From Paracoccus hibiscisoli (lineage in GTDB: Bacteria > Pseudomonadota > Alphaproteobacteria > Rhodobacterales > Rhodobacteraceae), in the NCBI RefSeq assembly GCF_005048265.1, contig NZ_SUNH01000021.1, positions 1 through 64,000 of the forward strand: a stretch of DNA of 64,000 nucleotides, written 5' to 3'. The notes beneath the pieces were generated by a model that saw only the letters and a list, made by a program, of their open reading frames with translations, had not been told where the DNA came from and made no database searches. Within the stretch, counting starts at the first letter, position 1; every line of letters begins with the position of its first letter. Both the position numbers and the translations under genes were made by a program. Positions 13,704 through 31,049 of the stretch are shown here, one piece after another.

Positions 13704-15281
13704 TCACAGGCCGATGGCCATGCCGTCCTTGCGGCTGTCGGACCCGCCTTCCAGCAGACCCGTTGAAATACGGATCGCCTGCGCGCCGCCCATCGGGCCG
13801 GTCAGGCGTTTGATGACATGGCCGCGCGCGGCCAGATCGTCGCAGATGTCCTGCGGCAGGGTCGGTTCGACCTGCAGCACGCCGTCGGTCGCAAAGCTGC
13901 GCGGCTCGTCAATCGCGGCCTGCAGGGACAGGCCCCGGTCGATCACCGCCGACAGAAAGGCCGCGTGGCCGGTGGCCTGATACTGCCCGCCCATCACGCC
14001 AAAGGGCATGACGTTGCGCCCGCCCTGCGTGACCATGCCGGGAATGATCGTGTGCATCGGACGTTTGCGCGGACCGATGGCGTTCGGATGGCCGGGGATC
14101 AGGCGGAAGGACGCGCCCCGGCTTTGGAACAGCACGCCGGTCGCCGGGTCCAGCCGCCCCGAGCCGAAGCCGTGAAAGATCGAATTGATGAAGGACACCG
14201 CGTTCCCCTGCGCGTCCACCACGCACAGATAGATGGTGTCCTTGTGCTCGGGCTCGTCCCACAGGGCGGGGGCCTGGGCGCGGGTCATGTCGATGCGGGC
14301 GCGCAGGGCGGTGATGGCCGCGTCCGACAGCAGCGTCTCCGTCAGGCCCGCGCAATGGTCCGCATCGCCCAGCAGGGCGTCGCGGTGGTGATAGGCCAGC
14401 TTGGTCGCCTCGGCCTGGACATGATGGCGGTCTGCGGTGGACAGCGCGGCCATGTCGAAGCCCTCGATGATCCGAAGGATCAGCAGCGCGGCAAGCCCCT
14501 GCCCGTTCGGCGGGCATTCGTGGATGTCGAACCCGCGATAGCGCGCGCAGATCGGCGCGACCCATTCGGCGCCGTCCGTCGCCCCGGCAAAATCCTGTTC
14601 CGTATGCAGCCCGCCCAGGGACCGCAGATGCGCGACCATGCGCGCGGCGGTATCGCCCTGATAAAAGGCCGCCGGGCCGTGGGCCGCGATCTCCTCCAGC
14701 CGGTCGGCCAGCAGGGGTTGCGCATGGCGCGCGCCCGCTTGCGGCGCGGGCAGGAACAGGGCCGCGGCATGGGGGTCCGCCGCCACCGTCGCCGCCGATT
14801 CGGCCCAGTCCTGCGCGACGCGCGGGGTGACCGGATAGCCGTCGCGGGCATAACCCACCGCATCGCGGAACAGCCGTGTCAGCGGCAGAGAGCCCAGATC
14901 GGCATGCAGCCGGCACCAGGCCGAAATCGCGCCCGGCACGGTCACCGCATGCGGGCTGCTCTGCGGGATCGCATCGGTCAGCCCGGCGGCCTGCAGGGCC
15001 TCAACCGTTGCGGCGGCGGGCGCACGCCCCGACCCGTTCAGCGCCCGTACCGGTCCATTCACCGGGGCATACAGCGCAAAGCAATCGCCGCCGATGCCCG
15101 TCATCAGCGGGTCGACCACCGCCTGCACCGCGCTGGCGGCGATGGCCGCGTCGACGGCATTGCCGCCCTGGGCCAGGACCGACAGGCCCGCGGCGCTGGC
15201 CAGCGGGTGAGAGGTCGCCACCATCGCGCGGCCCGCATAGGTCGCCGGGCGACGGCCCGACAGGAAATCGAATGCGCTCAT
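13704..15281 (-). CDS. Gamma-glutamyltransferase-family Ntn hydrolase
   Basis: Protein of 525 residues of the gamma-glutamyltranspeptidase family, made as one chain and normally self-cleaved before a catalytic threonine. The N-terminal block VLAQGGNAVDAAIAAS, the KDTIYLCVVDAQGNAVSFIN segment with the candidate nucleophile Thr, and the C-terminal QYQATGHAAFL are all present. There is no signal peptide, so it should be cytoplasmic, unlike E. coli Ggt. It heads an operon with the SBF-like transporter and is divergent from a GntR regulator with a palindrome between them. Many members are not true glutathione hydrolases, so the substrate is open. Confidence 0.85.
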   Translation of the reverse strand: MSAFDFLSGRRPATYAGRAMVATSHPLASAAGLSVLAQGGNAVDAAIAASAVQAVVDPLMTGIGGDCFALYAPVNGPVRALNGSGRAPAAATVEALQAAGLTDAIPQSSPHAVTVPGAISAWCRLHADLGSLPLTRLFRDAVGYARDGYPVTPRVAQDWAESAATVAADPHAAALFLPAPQAGARHAQPLLADRLEEIAAHGPAAFYQGDTAARMVAHLRSLGGLHTEQDFAGATDGAEWVAPICARYRGFDIHECPPNGQGLAALLILRIIEGFDMAALSTADRHHVQAEATKLAYHHRDALLGDADHCAGLTETLLSDAAITALRARIDMTRAQAPALWDEPEHKDTIYLCVVDAQGNAVSFINSIFHGFGSGRLDPATGVLFQSRGASFRLIPGHPNAIGPRKRPMHTIIPGMVTQGGRNVMPFGVMGGQYQATGHAAFLSAVIDRGLSLQAAIDEPRSFATDGVLQVEPTLPQDICDDLAARGHVIKRLTGPMGGAQAIRISTGLLEGGSDSRKDGMAIGL

Positions 15282-20387: not shown

Positions 20388-21164
20388 ATGACCACGACCG
20401 ACGATCTGACCCTTGCGCTGGAGGCCGCGACGGCGGCGGGCGCGCTGCTGCGCGACCATTGGAACGACCGGGGCGCGCTGATGATCGACGCCAAGCGGCA
20501 GGGTGACTTTGTGTCGCAGGCCGATCACCGGGCCGAGGCGCTGCTGCGCGACCGCCTGCTGGGCGCGAACCCCGAAGACGGCTGGCTGGGCGAGGAGACC
20601 GAAGGCCGCGCCGGTCGCCGCCGCTGGATCGTGGACCCGCTTGACGGGACGACGAACTTTCTGCGCGGCATCGCGCATTGGGCGGTGTCCATCGCGCTGG
20701 AACAGGACGGGCGGCTGGTCCTGGGCGTCGTCCACGACCCGCTGAAGGATGAGACCTTCAGCGCGGTGGAGGGCGGCGGCCTGCGGCTGAACGGCACGGC
20801 GCTGGTGCCTGCCGCGCCTGCGGGCTTTGATGCGGCGCTGTTCGGGACGGGGCTGCCCTTTGGCAGCATGCCGCATATCGACGATCACGCCGCCGATCTG
20901 GCGCGGGTGCTGCCGGGCACGGCGGGGGTGCGCCGCATGGGGGCCGCCGCGCTGGATCTGGCCTATGTCGCCGCCGGGCGGCTGGACGGGTTCTGGGAAC
21001 GCCGCCTGCGGCCCTGGGACATCGCCGCGGGCCTGGTCCTGATGCGCGAGGCGGGCATCCGCACCGAGGGCTGGTCCGCGGATGAGCGCCCCGAGGACAC
21101 CGGCACCGTCATCGCCGCCCCGCCCGCGCTGTTCGACCGCCTGGCCGCGACCCTGCGCGCCTAG
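20388..21164 (+). CDS. Inositol-monophosphatase-family phosphatase
   Basis: Mg-dependent phosphatase of 258 residues of the SuhB/CysQ superfamily. The metal-binding motifs are complete: GEETEG, DPLDGTTNFLRG and the C-terminal WDIAAGLVLMREAG. AAAGGA, 8 bp before ATG 20388, supports the start. The motifs fit inositol-1-phosphatase/SuhB better than CysQ but do not prove the substrate. Its TAG stop shares a CTAG (21161-21164) with the convergent FkbM gene. Confidence 0.88.
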   Translation: MTTTDDLTLALEAATAAGALLRDHWNDRGALMIDAKRQGDFVSQADHRAEALLRDRLLGANPEDGWLGEETEGRAGRRRWIVDPLDGTTNFLRGIAHWAVSIALEQDGRLVLGVVHDPLKDETFSAVEGGGLRLNGTALVPAAPAGFDAALFGTGLPFGSMPHIDDHAADLARVLPGTAGVRRMGAAALDLAYVAAGRLDGFWERRLRPWDIAAGLVLMREAGIRTEGWSADERPEDTGTVIAAPPALFDRLAATLRA

Positions 21165-21892
21165 GCCAGCCGCGCGTAAAGGTCGCCCGACCCGCCCTCG
21201 GGCGGCAGGGCGGCCAGCCAGGCGCGCACCGCATCCGCGTCGCGCCATTCGTCCCACAGGAACCCCCCGGCCTCTCCGGTCACCGGGTTGAACCGATAGC
21301 GGCCAAGGCTCTCCAGCCGGTCGATCACCGCCAGCGTGCGGTCGCGGAACGCGGGCAGGTATTCGACCGACAGCATCGGCAGCGGCTGCCCCAGGCCGGA
21401 CAGCACGTCCAGCTCGAACCCCTCGACGTCGATCTTAACGAAATCGGGCAGGCCGTGGGTGGCGATCAGCGCGTCCATCGTGGTCATCTGCACTTGCTGA
21501 CTGCGGTCCCACCGGACATGGCCGAAACCCGGCGCCCCGGCCGCCTCGGCCGCGAAGCTGGTGCTGAGCGACGACACCGTGGGGTGCAGCGACGACACCG
21601 CCATCTGCGCCACCGCCTCGGACGGGCCGATGGCCTTTTGCACCAGCACGATGTCGCGCGGCAGGCTGCGACGCAGGAACCCGGCAAAGGGCTCCTGCGG
21701 CTCGCAGGCGACGACCCGCGCGCCCGCCGCCCGCATGGCCCGCGACCGGCTGCCCACATGCGCGCCGATGTCAAAGGCCAGATCGCCCGGTTGCAGCAGA
21801 TCGCCATAGAACGCCCGCAACTGCCGGCGGCGCAGCGGATTGTAATAGATGGCAAGCGACCGGATCAGGCCCAGATAGGCGCGCAGAGGCAT
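21161..21892 (-). CDS. FkbM-family SAM-dependent methyltransferase
   Basis: Methyltransferase of 243 residues. The SAM-binding glycine motif is FDIGAHVGSRSRAM, followed by an acidic residue in VVACEPQEP, and the FkbM signature KIDVEGFELDVLSGL is near residue 150. Family members methylate hydroxyls of sugars or polyketides. ATG 21892 has GAGGGA about 8 bp upstream. No sugar-polymer genes are nearby, so its substrate is not evident. It diverges from the ribA operon. Confidence 0.85.
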   Translation of the reverse strand: MPLRAYLGLIRSLAIYYNPLRRRQLRAFYGDLLQPGDLAFDIGAHVGSRSRAMRAAGARVVACEPQEPFAGFLRRSLPRDIVLVQKAIGPSEAVAQMAVSSLHPTVSSLSTSFAAEAAGAPGFGHVRWDRSQQVQMTTMDALIATHGLPDFVKIDVEGFELDVLSGLGQPLPMLSVEYLPAFRDRTLAVIDRLESLGRYRFNPVTGEAGGFLWDEWRDADAVRAWLAALPPEGGSGDLYARLA

Positions 21893-22096: not shown

Positions 22097-23233
22097 ATGC
22101 GCGTATTTCCCCCGATTTCCACCGCATTGCCCGCCGTTCCGGGGGCCGATGATCCGCTGACGCTGCGTCGATCCGAACGCGTGGCCCGGATGGTGTCGGA
22201 CCTCAGGCTGGGCCTGCCGGTGGTGCTGATCGGCGACCCGGCCCCCGCGCTGATCTATCCGGTCGAGACCCTGTCGCCCGAACGCTTTGCCGCCTTGGGC
22301 GCCGGAGGAGAGCTTGTCCTGACCGCCCGCCGCGCCGAGGCCCTGCGCCATCGTCCGCATGAGGGCGAGGTCGCCTTGGTCCCCGTGCCCGCGGGCGCGC
22401 GTCTGGACTGGGTCCAGGCCTTGGCCGACCCGTCGCGCCGCATGCCCGCGAACGCTGCCCTGCCGCAGGCCCCCCAGCATCAGCCGACGATCCTGCATCG
22501 TGCCGCCATCCGCCTGGTCAAGACGGCAGAGCTGCTGCCCGCTGCGCTGGTCGTGACCGGCCCCGACGTGATCGACACCGCGCTGCGCCACGGCCTGGGC
22601 ATCCTTGCGGCGGATGAGGTTCTGGACCAGGTCCTGCTGCCGCGCGACCCGCGCCCGGTGTCGGACGCCCGCGTGCCGATGCTGGCCGCGCGCAACGGTC
22701 GCCTGCACGTGTTCCGCGCGCCAGATGGCGGCCCCGAGCATTACGCGGTCGAGGTCGGCACCCCCGACCGGGACAAGCCCGTGCTGGTGCGCCTGCATTC
22801 GGCATGCTTTACCGGCGACGTGCTGGGCAGCCTGAAGTGCGATTGCGGCCCGCAGCTGCAGGCCGCCCTGCGCGCGATGGAGGCCAATGGCACCGGCGTG
22901 CTGCTGTATCTGAACCAGGAGGGGCGCGGCATCGGCCTGGCCAACAAGATGCGCGCCTACAGCCTGCAGGATCAGGGGCTGGACACGGTCGAGGCGAACC
23001 ACCGCCTTGGATTCGAGGATGACGAGCGTGATTTCCGCACCGGCGCCGCCCTGCTGCGCCAGATGGGGATCGGGCGCGTGCGTCTGATGACCAACAACCC
23101 CGCCAAGATCGCGCGTCTGGACAGCGAGGGCATCGAGGTCGTCGAACGGGTCGAACTGAAGGTCGGTCGCGGCCCCGAAAACACCCGCTATCTGGACACC
23201 AAGGCCCGCAAATCCGGGCATCTGCTGGCATGA
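22097..23233 (+). CDS. ribA: GTP cyclohydrolase II, with a long N-terminal domain
   Basis: Converts GTP to 2,5-diamino-6-ribosylamino-pyrimidinone 5'-phosphate, the first step of riboflavin synthesis. The protein has 378 residues. The C-terminal half (about 195-378) is canonical: zinc cysteines at about 237, 248 and 250 in CFTGDVLGSLKCDCG, then LNQEGRGIGLANKMRAYSLQ with the Tyr (about 288) equivalent to E. coli Tyr105, and VRLMTNNPAKI. The first ~190 residues replace the RibB domain of bifunctional enzymes but lack its recognisable motifs; their role is unknown. The ribosome site is weak. No FMN riboswitch is visible upstream. Its TGA overlaps the next ATG (ATGA), making it the lead gene of a five-gene operon. 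Confidence 0.92.
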   Translation: MRVFPPISTALPAVPGADDPLTLRRSERVARMVSDLRLGLPVVLIGDPAPALIYPVETLSPERFAALGAGGELVLTARRAEALRHRPHEGEVALVPVPAGARLDWVQALADPSRRMPANAALPQAPQHQPTILHRAAIRLVKTAELLPAALVVTGPDVIDTALRHGLGILAADEVLDQVLLPRDPRPVSDARVPMLAARNGRLHVFRAPDGGPEHYAVEVGTPDRDKPVLVRLHSACFTGDVLGSLKCDCGPQLQAALRAMEANGTGVLLYLNQEGRGIGLANKMRAYSLQDQGLDTVEANHRLGFEDDERDFRTGAALLRQMGIGRVRLMTNNPAKIARLDSEGIEVVERVELKVGRGPENTRYLDTKARKSGHLLA

Positions 23234-24174
23234 CCGCCGACGCGCTTTGGTGCACCGCCCCCGGTCAGGCCGCGCTGCGCCCCGGCCAGCTTGGCGAGGG
23301 CACCCACGTCCGCACGCTGTTCTCGGGCATCAGCCGCGGGACCGAGCGGTTGGTCCTGTCCGGCCAAGTTCCCGACAGCGAACAGGACCGCATGCGCGCC
23401 CCATTTCAGGAGGGCAATTTTCCGTTTCCGGTGAAATACGGCTATGCCGCCGTGGGCCTGGCAAGCGACGGCGCGCTGGCGGGACGCCATGTCTTTGCGC
23501 TGTTCCCACACCAGACCGAATTCCGCCTGCCCCAAGACGCGCTGATCCCGCTGCCCGACGCGCTGCCCCCAGAACGTGCGATCATGGCCGCGAATATGGA
23601 AACCGCGCTGAACATCCTTTGGGACAGCGGCGCGGGTGCGGGCGACCGGATCGCCGTCGTGGGCGGCGGGCTGGTCGGCCTTCTGACCGCCTATTTGGCC
23701 GCGCGGCTGCCGGGGGCGGAGGTGACGGTCATCGACCCCCTGCCCGACCGCGCCGCCATTGCCCGCGATCTGGGCTGCGCCTTTGCCGCGCCCGATGCCG
23801 CACCCGGCGATCAGGACGTGGTGATCCACACCAGCGCGTCGCAGGCCGGGCTGGTCCTGGCCCTGTCGCTGGCCGGGCCCCAGGCCACCATCGCCGAGGC
23901 CAGCTGGCATGGCGCGGCGCAGGTGGCCCTGCCCCTGGGCGGCGCGTTTCACAGCCGCCGCCTGCGCATCGTCAGCACTCAGGTCGGCAGCATCCCGCCC
24001 GACCGCGCGCCGCGCTGGACCTATCGCCGCCGCCTGAGCAAGGCGCTGGACCTGCTGTGCGACGCGCGGCTGGACGCGCTGATCTCGGGGCAGACGGCCT
24101 TCGCCGATCTGCCCGACGCCTATCCCGGCATCCTGGCCGACCCCGCCACCCTGTGCCACCGCATCGCCTATTGA
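23230..24174 (+). CDS. Medium-chain dehydrogenase/reductase (BchC-like), lacking the catalytic zinc cysteine
   Basis: Predicted NAD(P)-dependent oxidoreductase of 314 residues. The N-terminal catalytic part has SGISRGTERLVLSGQ, where classical zinc alcohol dehydrogenases have a Cys zinc ligand in a GICGTD-type motif. The same S-G-T-E arrangement occurs in bacteriochlorophyllide dehydrogenase BchC and related proteins. The nucleotide-binding fold is clear at IAVVGGGLVGLLTAY with an acidic residue in VTVIDPLPDR. It is translationally coupled to ribA and 13 bp from the PTPS-like gene, so its substrate is probably an intermediate of that pathway rather than an ordinary alcohol. Confidence 0.8.
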   Translation: MTADALWCTAPGQAALRPGQLGEGTHVRTLFSGISRGTERLVLSGQVPDSEQDRMRAPFQEGNFPFPVKYGYAAVGLASDGALAGRHVFALFPHQTEFRLPQDALIPLPDALPPERAIMAANMETALNILWDSGAGAGDRIAVVGGGLVGLLTAYLAARLPGAEVTVIDPLPDRAAIARDLGCAFAAPDAAPGDQDVVIHTSASQAGLVLALSLAGPQATIAEASWHGAAQVALPLGGAFHSRRLRIVSTQVGSIPPDRAPRWTYRRRLSKALDLLCDARLDALISGQTAFADLPDAYPGILADPATLCHRIAY

Positions 24175-24187
24175 CCCTGGAGACACC

Positions 24188-24583
24188 ATGTTCGCCGTCG
24201 AAGTCCGAGACCACATCATGATCGCCCATTCCTTCCCCTCGCCGACCTTCGGTCCGGCGCAGGGCATGCATGGCGCGACCTTCACCGTCGACACCGCCTT
24301 TTTCGCCGAAGAGATGGACCACGAAAGCCTGGTCGTCGATATCGGCCTGGCGACCGAGGCTCTGGCCGAGACGCTGTCCCCCCTGCGCTACAAGAACCTG
24401 GACGAAATCCCTGAGTTCGCCGGGAAAATGACCACGACCGAATTCCTGTGCAAGCATATCTTTGACCAGATGGCCGCCAAGGTTCGCGCCGGTGACCTGA
24501 AGGACGGGGGCCGCGTCAAAAAGCTGCGCGTGCTGCTGCACGAAAGCCACATGGCCCGCGCCTGGTTCGAAGGGGACATCTGA
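24188..24583 (+). CDS. 6-pyruvoyltetrahydropterin synthase/QueD-fold protein with a degenerate active site
   Basis: T-fold protein of 131 residues, the usual length for 6-pyruvoyl- or 6-carboxy-tetrahydropterin synthases. Recognisable parts are IAHSF (His14) and MHGATF (His28) of the zinc site, the LDEIP segment and the terminal HES (Glu119). Key residues are changed: HGH has become HGA (Ala30), the catalytic Cys four residues before that His is Ala24, and the Asp-His dyad of the LDHxxLN motif is Arg67-Tyr68. A normal QueD or PTPS reaction is therefore unlikely; the fold may bind a pterin-like compound or do different chemistry. It lies mid-operon with 13-bp and 2-bp gaps. Confidence 0.8.
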   Translation: MFAVEVRDHIMIAHSFPSPTFGPAQGMHGATFTVDTAFFAEEMDHESLVVDIGLATEALAETLSPLRYKNLDEIPEFAGKMTTTEFLCKHIFDQMAAKVRAGDLKDGGRVKKLRVLLHESHMARAWFEGDI

Positions 24584-24585
24584 AC

Positions 24586-25359
24586 ATGGGCTTTTCGGCG
24601 GAATGGCTGACCCTGCGCGAACCCGCCGACATGGCCGCCCGCGACGCGACGCTGCTGGCGCAGGCGGCCATCGTCGCGGGGCCTGATCCGGTGGTGCTGG
24701 ATCTGGGCTGCGGCACCGGATCGACGCTGCGCACGCTGGCGCCGCATCTGCCCGACCACGCGCGCTGGCATCTGGTCGACAACGACCCCGCCCTGCTGGA
24801 ACGTGCCGCGACCGAGGCGCCGGGCCGCGCCACCGTCCACACGCTGGACCTGCGCGATCTGGAGGCATTGCCGCTGGAGGGCGTCACCCTGGTGACGGCA
24901 TCCGCGCTGCTGGACCTGATGCCCGCCGACTGGATCGCGGCGCTGGCCGCGCGGCTGGCGGCGGTGGGCCTGCCCTTCTATGCCGCGCTGTCCTATGACG
25001 GGATCATGGCCTGGGACCCCGCCCTGCCGCGCGACGCGGACGTGACGCGGGCGTTCAACGACCACCAGCGGACCGACAAGGGGCTTGGCCCCGCGCTTGG
25101 TCCCGATGCGGCGGTGCAGGCGGCGCAGATCTTTCGCGATGCGGGCTTTGACGTTCATGACGGCAACAGCCCCTGGCGCATCGACGCCGACAGCGCACCC
25201 CTGCACCGCGCCCTGGTCGAGGGGATCGCGCAGGCGGCTTCCGAGACCGGTCTGGCCGTCGCGACCGACTGGGGCCGCAACCGCGCCGCGATGGCCGGCG
25301 ACAGCCGCTGCCTGATCGGGCATCATGACCTGTTGGCCCTGCCCCCCGGCACGGCCTGA
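24586..25359 (+). CDS. Class I SAM-dependent methyltransferase
   Basis: Methyltransferase of 257 residues with the Rossmann motif I VLDLGCGTGSTLRTLAP near residues 37-53, motif II acidic residue in HLVDNDPALL, and VTASALLDLMPADW as the motif IV region. Its start is two bases after the PTPS-like stop, so it belongs firmly to the ribA-led operon. By context it should methylate a pyrimidine, pterin or ribityl compound made by its neighbours. Fold-level similarity to trans-aconitate methyltransferases does not fix the substrate. Confidence 0.82.
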   Translation: MGFSAEWLTLREPADMAARDATLLAQAAIVAGPDPVVLDLGCGTGSTLRTLAPHLPDHARWHLVDNDPALLERAATEAPGRATVHTLDLRDLEALPLEGVTLVTASALLDLMPADWIAALAARLAAVGLPFYAALSYDGIMAWDPALPRDADVTRAFNDHQRTDKGLGPALGPDAAVQAAQIFRDAGFDVHDGNSPWRIDADSAPLHRALVEGIAQAASETGLAVATDWGRNRAAMAGDSRCLIGHHDLLALPPGTA

Positions 25360-25381
25360 CACACCCAGAGGAGGACCGCCC

Positions 25382-26212
25382 ATGCACGCCGTCGACGTCA
25401 CCCCTCGGGTCTGGGATCGGCTTCTGTCGGTCCGCACCGGCCAGGCCTGCGCCTGCTGCGGGCGGTTCACGGCGGGCGAACGTGCCGCGCTGGACCTGTA
25501 CGGTCCCGTCGCGCGGCGCGATCTGGGTCCGGTGACCATCGCCCAGATCGGCCAGTCGTTGGACGGACGCGTGGCCACCGCCACGGGCGATGCGCGCGAC
25601 GTGTCGGGCCCCGAGGGGCTGGCCCATCTGCACCGCCTGCGCGCACTGGTCGACGGCGTGGTGATCGGCGTCAAGACCGCCCTGCACGATCAGCCCCGCC
25701 TGACCGTGCGCCTGTGCAGCGGCCACAACCCGGCGCGCATCGTCATCGACCCGCGCGGGCGGCTGCCCGACGACGCGCCGGTTTTGGCCGCTGACGGCGC
25801 GCGGCGGATCATCGTCACCGGCACCGACCGCCCCCGCGCCCCGGGGATCGAGGTCCTGCGCCTGCCCGCCCCGGACGGTCGCCTGGACCCCGCGCAGGTG
25901 CTGGAGGGGCTGCGTAGCATCGGCCTGGGGTCGCTGCTGATCGAGGGGGGCGGCATCACCATCACCGGTTTCCTGGAGGCCGGGCTGCTGGACCGGCTTC
26001 AGGTCTCGATCGCGCCGCTGATCATCGGGGCCGGGCCGCAGGGGCTGACCAGCCTGTCGCCGGTGGACAAGCTGAAGGACGCGCTGCGCCCCGACACGCG
26101 TGTTTTTGGCATGGGCAGCGACATCGTCTTTGACTGTGCCTTTGGCGATCAGGCTGCGCGCGCGGTCGTGCCGCTGCATGTCGCGCAGCCGCTGGCTACT
26201 GCCGCCAGTTGA
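25382..26212 (+). CDS. RibD-type reductase domain protein without the deaminase domain
   Basis: Stand-alone homologue (276 residues) of the C-terminal reductase domain of RibD, which reduces the ribosyl side chain of the riboflavin precursor to ribityl using NADPH. Motifs include IAQIGQSLDGRVA, LRALVDGVVIGVKTAL, PRLTVR and SLLIEGGGITITGFLEAGL. The N-terminal ~60 residues contain CACCGRF but not the cytidine-deaminase zinc motifs (HAE, PCxxxxxxPC) of bifunctional RibD. GGAGG 7-8 bp before ATG 25382 supports the start. It is the last gene of the five-gene operon and overlaps the convergent CoA-transferase gene by 17 bp. Confidence 0.85.
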   Translation: MHAVDVTPRVWDRLLSVRTGQACACCGRFTAGERAALDLYGPVARRDLGPVTIAQIGQSLDGRVATATGDARDVSGPEGLAHLHRLRALVDGVVIGVKTALHDQPRLTVRLCSGHNPARIVIDPRGRLPDDAPVLAADGARRIIVTGTDRPRAPGIEVLRLPAPDGRLDPAQVLEGLRSIGLGSLLIEGGGITITGFLEAGLLDRLQVSIAPLIIGAGPQGLTSLSPVDKLKDALRPDTRVFGMGSDIVFDCAFGDQAARAVVPLHVAQPLATAAS

Positions 26213-29537: not shown

Positions 29538-31049
29538 CTAGGCCCCGCCCTCGCCGCGCGGATCATGCGCCCCGGTGACGCCACCGGCGATGCGGATCGC
29601 GCCCGCGCAGCCGAAGATCGGCGACAGGGCGGGCAGTTCCGCGACCTCGTGCCCGCGGGCGTGCAGTCCGGCGATGGCCTCCGCGCCAAGCGATCCTTCG
29701 ACCTTCAGGCTGTCGCGGCTGTCCGAGAACGTCCGCCCCAGCAGGAACCGCGGCTGCGCCAGCGCCTGCGCAGGCTCCAGCCCCCGGTCGATCAGCCCGG
29801 TCAGCAGCACCGCCAGCGTCTGCGGCTGCCCATCCGCACCTTGCGTGCCATAGAGCAGATGCGGCGCCCCGTCCCGCAGGGCAACGCCGGGGTTCAGCGT
29901 ATAGAACGGCCGTTTCCCCGGCGCGATGGCATTCACATGGCCGGGGTCGGTCGCGAATCCCGCGCCGCGATTGTGCCAGATGATGCCGGTATCACCCACC
30001 ACCACACCGCTGCCCCAGTCCCAGAACGTGCTTTGCAGCACCGAGGCACAGCGCCCCTGCGCATCCGTCGCGGCAAGGAACACCGTATCGCCGGGCCGGG
30101 CGCGATGCGGCCAGTCCAGCGCCCGGTCGGGGTCGATGGCCCGCGCGCGCGCGTCCAGATGCGCGGGGTCCAGCAGGTCGCGCGGATCAGCGCCGCCATG
30201 ATCCGGGTCCGCGATGCGGGCGCGGTCCAGGAAGGCCTGCTTGACCGCCTCGACCAGCAGATGGGTGCGGGCGGCGGGGTCGTCCGGGATGGTGTGCCGG
30301 TGCAGGATGCCCATGATCGCCAGGGTCGCGGCGCCCTGCGTCGGTGGCGGCGGCGCCAGCAGCATCAGGTCGCGATAGGGCTGGGCCAGCACATCGGCCT
30401 GACGCGCGCGGGTGCCGGCCAGATCGGCGGCCGTCAGGGGCGCCCCGGCATCGGCCAACCCCTGCGCCACACGCCGTGCCGCCGGGCCGTCATGGAAACT
30501 GCGCAGCCCGTCGCGGGACAGCAGGTCCAGCATCTCGGCCAGCTGCGGCTGGCGCAGCGGGTCGTGGCCCGCCCCGAACAGCGCCGCGAAACCGGGCCAG
30601 GCGGGCCAGTCGGCGGCGCGGAACGCCAGCCAGAAACGCTGGCTGTCGCCGGGGCGGAACCCTTCGCGGGCGAGGCGGCGCGCCGGGGTCAGCAGGTCGG
30701 GCACCGCCATGGTGCCGCCCCACCGATCCGCCGTCAGGGCCAGCGCCCGGTCCCAGCTGTCCACCGCGCAGGCCGTGGTCAGCATCGACCCCGGCCCCCG
30801 CATCGGCAGCGCATCGGGCAGATCGGGCAGCACCTGCGGCGCCTGCCCGATCCCCAGGATCGACGTGGTCCAGCCGTCGCGGTCGGCCAGCATCCAGACC
30901 GCATCGCCGCCCAAGCCGTTGAAATGCGGCATGACCACGGCCAGTGTCGCGGCCATGGCGACCGCAGCCTCGGCTGCGGTGCCGCCTTGGGCCAGCACGT
31001 CGGTGCCGGCCTGCGTGGCCAGCGGATGCGGGCTGACGGCCAGGCTCAT
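29538..31049 (-). CDS. Second gamma-glutamyltransferase-family protein, in an ABC-transporter operon
   Basis: Gamma-glutamyltranspeptidase-family protein of 503 residues without a signal peptide. It has DVLAQGGTAAEAAVAMAATL, the GDTVFLAATDAQGRCASVLQ segment with the expected processing-site Thr, and GKRPFYTLNPGVAL. It is clearly a different paralogue from the one at 13704. Its ATG overlaps the stop of the substrate-binding protein, so it is the last gene of the NitT/TauT-type transporter operon. It probably processes the imported compound, for example by opening a gamma-glutamyl or related amide bond. The substrate is unknown. Confidence 0.82.
   Translation of the reverse strand: MSLAVSPHPLATQAGTDVLAQGGTAAEAAVAMAATLAVVMPHFNGLGGDAVWMLADRDGWTTSILGIGQAPQVLPDLPDALPMRGPGSMLTTACAVDSWDRALALTADRWGGTMAVPDLLTPARRLAREGFRPGDSQRFWLAFRAADWPAWPGFAALFGAGHDPLRQPQLAEMLDLLSRDGLRSFHDGPAARRVAQGLADAGAPLTAADLAGTRARQADVLAQPYRDLMLLAPPPPTQGAATLAIMGILHRHTIPDDPAARTHLLVEAVKQAFLDRARIADPDHGGADPRDLLDPAHLDARARAIDPDRALDWPHRARPGDTVFLAATDAQGRCASVLQSTFWDWGSGVVVGDTGIIWHNRGAGFATDPGHVNAIAPGKRPFYTLNPGVALRDGAPHLLYGTQGADGQPQTLAVLLTGLIDRGLEPAQALAQPRFLLGRTFSDSRDSLKVEGSLGAEAIAGLHARGHEVAELPALSPIFGCAGAIRIAGGVTGAHDPRGEGGA

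Follow-up and report, generated by a model that had tools for sequence, protein, structure and literature searches.

The stretch of DNA analysed here, hereafter the window, comprises the first 64,000 nucleotides of contig NZ_SUNH01000021.1 of Paracoccus hibiscisoli (assembly GCF_005048265.1). Five open reading frames, each running from ATG to TGA, follow one another on the plus strand between positions 22097 and 26212. They encode a GTP cyclohydrolase II (A), a dehydrogenase of the medium-chain dehydrogenase/reductase (MDR) type (B), a protein related to 6-pyruvoyl-tetrahydropterin synthase (PTPS; C), an S-adenosylmethionine (SAM) methyltransferase (D) and a reductase of the RibD_C type (E; Table 1). 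An initial annotation, made from the sequence alone, had described this order with successive gaps of -4, 13, 2 and 22 bp, and both order and gaps proved exact. A (PF00925), C (PF01242), D (Methyltransf_25) and E (PF01872) exceed their Pfam cut-offs. We consider it fairly probable that the operon forms one of the two halves of a conserved pathway that starts from GTP and leaves riboflavin synthesis ahead of the deamination step. Established below are the gene set, its conservation and co-occurrence, and the residues that mark its proteins; contigs (C), genomes (G) and loci (L) carry our own numbers.

Table 1. Genes of the operon, its immediate neighbours and the block on contig C13 of the same genome
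Feature	Product	Position	Strand	Matches and remarks
A	GTP cyclohydrolase II, RibA paralogue, 378 aa	22097..23233	+	PF00925 201.8 bits; TIGR00505 226.5 bits (cut-off 205.85)
B	MDR dehydrogenase, probably zinc-less, BchC-like in SGISRGTE motif, 314 aa	23230..24174	+	ADH_zinc_N and TIGR01202, both below cut-off
C	PTPS-IV subfamily T-fold protein, 131 aa	24188..24583	+	PF01242 73.4 bits; signature FGPAQ
D	Class I SAM methyltransferase, 257 aa	24586..25359	+	Methyltransf_25 44.4 bits
E	Stand-alone RibD_C-type reductase without deaminase, 276 aa	25382..26212	+	PF01872 131.1 bits (cut-off 24.1)
M	FkbM-family methyltransferase, divergent neighbour	21161..21892	-	PF05050 59.3 bits
I	Inositol-monophosphatase-family phosphatase, upstream	20388..21164	+	PF00459 182.4 bits
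F-S-L-X	CDP-alcohol phosphotransferase, sulfatase-family membrane enzyme, LPG_synthase_TM protein, family 4 glycosyltransferase (GT4)	contig C13		

The substrate that we predict for the pathway follows from its reductase. E has the marks of a RibD_C-type pyrimidine reductase: besides the domain match, the Asp of its DxP motif, which by this motif we equate with Asp200 of E. coli, is kept in 97 of 97 E proteins. It departs from bacterial RibD at the position that selects the substrate. Throughout the 97 loci with an E match this position holds Gln in 78 proteins, His in 18, Leu in one and Lys in none; it is Gln55 in the window's protein and Lys157 in the genome's own RibD. A simple motif test found no deaminase motif in frame upstream of E at any of the 97 loci. 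The best solved relatives of E are 6p8c and 2azn of M. jannaschii (about 100 bits, versus about 66 bits for E. coli RibD), a likeness to the archaeal and fungal 2,5-diamino-6-ribosylamino-pyrimidinone phosphate reductases (RIB7 type), although E carries Gln or His (once Leu) where these have Asn (archaea) or Thr (fungi). PMC3631187 states that Lys152 of E. coli RibD is thought to favour the deaminated substrate, the fungal and archaeal residues being Thr and Asn, and that a Thr-to-Lys mutant of yeast RIB7 showed a roughly threefold preference for the deaminated substrate over the other form. Since the Lys is absent from all 97 E proteins, we predict a non-deaminated substrate; together with the lack of a deaminase in the operon, this agrees with the non-deaminated intermediate suggested by the initial annotation.

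Protein A has the sequence features of a GTP cyclohydrolase II (RibA), passing the TIGR00505 cut-off and keeping both the zinc cysteines and the Tyr of RAYSLQ, a residue presumably associated with full ring opening by this enzyme. When 53 linked RibA-type sequences are aligned, each zinc cysteine is kept in 52 and the Tyr in 51, the exceptions to the latter being Met in Streptomyces fungicidicus (L185) and a gap in one other sequence. We also considered, and rejected, an archaeal-style formyl intermediate that a creatininase would resolve. L185 does combine the Tyr to Met change with a creatininase neighbour; however, four other loci (L065, L066, L083 and L088) have both a creatininase and the Tyr, so that no rule connecting the two could be upheld.

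The genome of the window (G000; 3.96 Mb in 112 contigs, 100% complete) holds three matches to GTP cyclohydrolase II: A itself, a stand-alone RibA on contig C36 that is 59% identical to A, and a RibBA on contig C29, which lies between riboflavin synthase (Lum_binding) and lumazine synthase (DMRL_synthase) and whose cyclohydrolase half, judged by eye, is without the usual Cys cluster. A RibD with both deaminase and reductase domains is also encoded on C29. Neither RibB, riboflavin synthase, lumazine synthase nor a RibD deaminase was found within the operon. As a full riboflavin set thus exists elsewhere, with a further ribA and ribD on C36 and C29, the operon is not the riboflavin operon, and the separation from riboflavin synthesis that the initial annotation had assumed holds.

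Protein C belongs by sequence to the PTPS-IV subfamily, carrying the signature FGPAQ and having PF00925 and PF01872 proteins as neighbours; PMC5445326 gives this name to the FGPAQ signature within COG0720. In an alignment of 41 C sequences, drawn from a set of 53 loci defined below, FGPA, HGAT, His14 and Glu119 are invariant and Gln25 nearly so. Ala24 and Ala30 align with the catalytic Cys and the last, zinc-binding His of CxxxxxHGH in PTPS 2g64, and both residues are lost in all 41 sequences (Ala24 for Cys; HGA for HGH). C thus lacks the HGH zinc site and the catalytic Cys of the PTPS/QueD enzymes, and for this loss we rejected a role as QueD or as a tetrahydrobiopterin enzyme. Of the description "PTPS/QueD-fold protein" in the initial annotation, the family match remains and the catalytic residues do not. 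The loss also contradicts the name "6-carboxytetrahydropterin synthase" borne by 14 of 20 plasmid matches to C. The invariant Glu119 we take to be the residue that anchors the 2-amino-4-oxo ring in PTPS. Contig C101 of the same genome encodes a distinct QueD-like protein whose CARLHGH motif is intact; the BLASTP match of this protein to C is weak (15.8 bits, E 0.15) and unusable for residue mapping. Among solved structures C is closest to SCO6650 of Streptomyces coelicolor (PDB 3d7j, E 7.1e-59), a member of the same subfamily which differs in being actinobacterial and is named "uncharacterized" in the PDB. We understand it to have a PTPS fold without zinc or catalytic triad and to be encoded near the GTP cyclohydrolase II SCO6655.

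B is a diverged MDR protein, scoring 24.1 bits with ADH_zinc_N (cut-off 31.8) and 33.8 bits with the bchC model TIGR01202, far under the cut-off of 291.25; among the family cut-offs shown it passes only that of PF13450, a small NAD(P)-binding model. The "BchC-like" of the initial annotation is consequently apt as a resemblance and not as a family membership. The likeness to BchC, the bacteriochlorophyll hydroxyethyl dehydrogenase, lies in an SGIS-GTE motif without Cys, which we take to be a feature of BchC; B differs from it also in occurring in Streptomyces and Microbacterium. Across 25 B sequences SRGTE is invariant and no Cys stands at the usual zinc motif. The structure model of B (predicted local distance difference test, pLDDT, 93.7) has as its top PDB folds, by Foldseek only, generic MDR dehydrogenases and reductases, L-idonate 5-dehydrogenase first, with polyol and alcohol dehydrogenases among the closest. 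For D, despite high model confidence (pLDDT 96.5), Foldseek, the only search used, returned distant PDB relatives (best template modelling score about 0.66), none of them informative.

The operon is completed by genes outside the window. In most loci of relatives a GT4 glycosyltransferase gene, X, lies between the PTPS-like gene and the methyltransferase gene, and its sequence cluster was found in 46 of 53 loci. X was identified by its sequence and the copy in the window's genome by Pfam; that copy (54% identity over its length) is on contig C13, within the block F-S-L-X, beside which stands a divergent cytochrome b561 gene. In the relative L021 a block of X, L, S and F shares a 16-kb stretch with I-M-B-C-D-E. 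Because L021 joins both parts on one stretch, a single system appears to be split between two places in the window's genome. The five genes, which the initial annotation had treated as a whole unit, rather belong to a larger system that also includes a glycosyltransferase and, in 20 of 40 PTPS-IV genomes tested, membrane genes. Members of the CDP-alcohol phosphotransferase family carry the motif DxxDGxxAR-x8-GxxxDxxxD. F (PF01066, 54.5 bits) can be assigned to them from its sequence: the four catalytic Asp of the motif are invariant in 23 sequences, which makes a link to a lipid or other alcohol plausible. S, judged by eye, is like lipoteichoic acid synthase. A further family, the MdoH-like genes (Md), is seldom found together with F or S. 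Among 141 loci, 48 have Md only, 48 have F or S only, 3 have both and 42 neither; the rarity of the combination suggests two alternative end modules.

With C as query at E 1e-8, the family yielded 13 matching genomes among 149 and the class 45 among 385, both counts including the window's genome; with the C alignment at 1e-20, the phylum yielded 27 among 398, of which 11 do not belong to the class. A single scan of genomes of named species gave at least 589 stretches encoding PTPS-IV, in Paracoccus, Palleronia, Roseovarius, Bosea, Azorhizobium, Rhodomicrobium, Pseudohaliea, Xanthomonas and other genera. Two sets of loci were compared: the 53-locus set, made up of the window and 52 relatives' loci, all picked for their PTPS-like gene, and the best 80 of the at least 589 stretches. 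Counts in the 53-locus set were B 51, X 47, D 46, E 40, A 19, Md 17, F 16, b561 13, M 9, S 8 and L 2, and are partly circular for A to E and X, whose profiles were seeded from it. In the 80-locus set, which supplied no seeds for these profiles, they were D 76, B 74, X 69, E 52, b561 36, A 33, M 33, Md 33, F 29, S 26 and L 24. Some loci end at contig ends, which lowers the counts, and some A counts are probably ordinary RibA adjoining the cluster (L070, L084-L086, L099 and L100); locus counts for I are weak, one of the two seeds of its profile being misframed, and one seed of the S profile has two stops. B and C are on the same strand in 128 loci and adjacent in 120 of these. At 20 other 18-kb loci from 11 of the same genomes every family scored zero, apart from one X. 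The absence of B, D and E from these control loci, compared with their frequency at PTPS-IV loci, indicates that the arrangement is not due to chance.

The neighbourhood, whose conservation the initial annotation had proposed to check, recurs far outside close relatives, in Alpha- and Gammaproteobacteria and in Actinomycetota, plasmids included; on this point, as on the presence of another ribA and ribD, the outcome favours the initial annotation. Twenty plasmid records match C, among them six from Streptomyces and one each from Arthrobacter and Microbacterium. Eight plasmid regions were inspected. The order dehydrogenase, PTPS-like gene, GT4, methyltransferase is present in five, those of Streptomyces fungicidicus, Microbacterium sp., Methylosinus (where the methyltransferase, annotated as hypothetical, was recognised by profile), Thiodictyon and Peteryoungia, and the Palleronia region has the window's own gene order. 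This last cluster (L189, Palleronia sp. LCG004) is carried by a repABC plasmid at a distance of two genes from the replication genes, which fits horizontal spread; phosphatase I adjoins it there too.

Several loci deserve separate mention. In L070, L084, L085, L086, L099 and L100 (and at 1426-3305 of L002) the cluster lies between an ordinary ribA and a response-regulator gene; on C36 of the window's genome ribA and the same response regulator are directly adjacent, with nothing between them. Two alphaproteobacterial genomes of 1.4-1.6 Mb (L083 of G406 and L088 of G308) have A, B, C, X, D and E complete, along with a creatininase gene, and at E 1e-12 no other RibD-type reductase was found in G308. 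In Paracoccus sp. PAMC 22219 (L105) the cluster proteins share 91-98% identity with those of the window; three profiles, for RibA, methyltransferase and FkbM, each give a match there that is broken into two pieces, perhaps through an assembly error. In the window itself, two gamma-glutamyltranspeptidase genes flank the region (13704-15281, minus strand, PF01019 449.8 bits; 29538-31049, minus strand, 309.2 bits).

Co-occurrence was examined at the level of whole genomes by comparing 40 of the 57 known PTPS-IV genomes, chosen for completeness, with 40 genomes lacking a match at E 1e-8; about a dozen of the latter were not individually listed and are counted as without match, and the small size or incompleteness of several (0.8-1.7 Mb) works in favour of the contrast. 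B is present in 40 of the 40 PTPS-IV genomes and in none of the others (E 1e-30). An E-type reductase scoring above 230 bits occurs in 35 of 40 versus 0 of 40, the next best match anywhere having 158 bits. In five of the 35 (G083, G101, G176, G183 and G526) E is on another contig or at least 60 kb away, so that the link is not merely positional. F and S are each found in 20 of 40 versus 1 of 40, in the identical 21 genomes. Some sequences in the query alignments for E, F and S come from genomes that were tested. When the comparison is confined to the family, the pattern persists for B (10 of 10 versus 0 of 20) and E (9 of 10 versus 0 of 20), and F and S are each found in 5 of 10 versus 1 of 20.

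Some of these observations weigh against a single shared pathway with this substrate. Five of the PTPS-IV genomes (G017, G322, G378, G380 and G418) have no E-type reductase above 230 bits; in G322 and G418 an additional RibD_C-like protein matches more weakly, at 103-106 bits. Twenty of the 40 lack F and S, and G018, which has neither PTPS-IV nor B, possesses both; as only half of the PTPS-IV genomes have them, a step at the envelope would not be universal. Two Streptomyces plasmids (L186 and L187) carry a PTPS-IV homologue without the other cluster genes, its neighbours including metallo-hydrolase, cupin and regulator genes, and the subfamily may thus have a second role. Finally, the argument from the Lys is based on structures and on one mutant of yeast RIB7.

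On the reading that we prefer, a pathway leaving riboflavin synthesis before deamination, A would open GTP to 2,5-diamino-6-ribosylamino-pyrimidinone phosphate, the function of its family, and E is predicted from its substrate-selecting residue to reduce the ribosyl to a ribityl chain with no deamination. B, an MDR dehydrogenase without the usual zinc Cys, may then oxidise the side chain, and C, which keeps the pterin-binding Glu and not the PTPS active site, may hold or close the 2-amino-4-oxo ring system to give a pterin-like compound. From their families, D would methylate this compound and X add a sugar. F, L (LPG_synthase_TM family, flippase-like) and S could link the product to a lipid or glycan for display in the envelope. 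The product is therefore pictured as probably a sugar-bearing, methylated, pterin-like molecule, which may be fixed to the cell envelope. A more specific version, which we hold to be quite unlikely, is a reduce-then-oxidise detour to pterins that would bypass GTP cyclohydrolase I. Here E would reduce the ribosyl of the RibA product to ribityl and B, whose fold is shared with sorbitol and other polyol dehydrogenases, would oxidise C2' to a ketone, giving the same keto intermediate that arises in the GTP cyclohydrolase I reaction through an Amadori rearrangement. The T-fold protein C would let the 5-amino group close the ring, and D and X would methylate and glycosylate. In roughly half the genomes F, L and S would then anchor a pterin-bearing lipid or glycan in the envelope, where the linked cytochrome b561 might service it.

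Could the product instead be a soluble, secreted or antibiotic-like pteridine or pyrimidine made by a toxoflavin-like logic, the envelope genes being neighbours by history? Besides ToxC and ToxD homologues, the toxoflavin pathway uses a GTP cyclohydrolase II, a RibD-like enzyme and a methyltransferase, a toolkit that A, D and E resemble; the distribution is patchy, plasmids included, and half of the tested PTPS-IV genomes are without F and S. However, we know of no role for B- and C-type proteins in toxoflavin synthesis, X travels with F, S and L in the window's genome, and the cluster is complete in the two genomes of 1.4-1.6 Mb (G406 and G308), where an antibiotic would be unexpected. We regard this alternative as unlikely. 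Still less probable is an accessory riboflavin operon, in which an extra RibA and RibD reductase would raise flavin output and the other genes be unrelated passengers. A normal GTP cyclohydrolase II and an E above the RibD_C cut-off would suit it. We rejected it in view of the second complete set on C29 and C36, none of whose deaminase, lumazine synthase or riboflavin synthase recurs in the operon, and of the residue of E, which is not the Lys of the deaminated substrate in any of the 97 proteins; moreover B and C, neither of them a riboflavin gene, form the strictest pair (40 of 40 versus 0 of 40). The F420 (deazaflavin) precursor FO is made from deaminated ribityl-uracil, with which the residue of E is at odds. 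A part in F420 synthesis, judged by CofD (TIGR01819) in the genome, is most improbable and was rejected for the window's genome: PTPS-IV is stated in PMC5041015, as unpublished work, to act in archaeal F420 synthesis, and CofD occurs in 6 of 40 PTPS-IV genomes versus 2 of 40 others, in G393 and G473 at some 6 kb from the PTPS-IV gene, but it is absent from 34 of the 40, the window's included, so that the archaeal role does not carry over to the cluster.

The branch before deamination, our preferred reading, is new in part. The subfamily and its RibA and RibD neighbours are known: the 2017 study, in its available portion, shows PTPS-IV as cluster-node 62 with 561 sequences and lists PF00925, labelled FolE2, and PF01872 as neighbours (PMC5445326), and proposes neither a pathway nor a product there. 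In Pfam, PF00925 is GTP cyclohydrolase II. On the gene combination or the subfamily, PMC5445326 and PMC5041015 were the only papers that the literature search brought to light; PMC2853524 mentions SCO6655 and SCO2687, once each. We add B, D, X, the F/S/L module, the co-occurrence across genomes, the substrate residue of E and the CofD test. The claim of novelty in the initial annotation accordingly fails for RibA and RibD_C near PTPS-IV and stands for the remainder, no account of the whole gene set, its substrate or its product having been found in the open-licence PubMed Central literature (supplements excluded); as far as we could find, pathway and product are new.

PTPS-IV genes are common, with at least 589 stretches encoding them in one scan. 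With its predicted substrate, its defined set of genes and its layout in two pieces, such a shared pathway would make the product directly findable by metabolomics of mutants. A membrane-bound product would represent a new kind of molecule in the envelope, and a pterin made by way of RibA would mean a second route to pterins.

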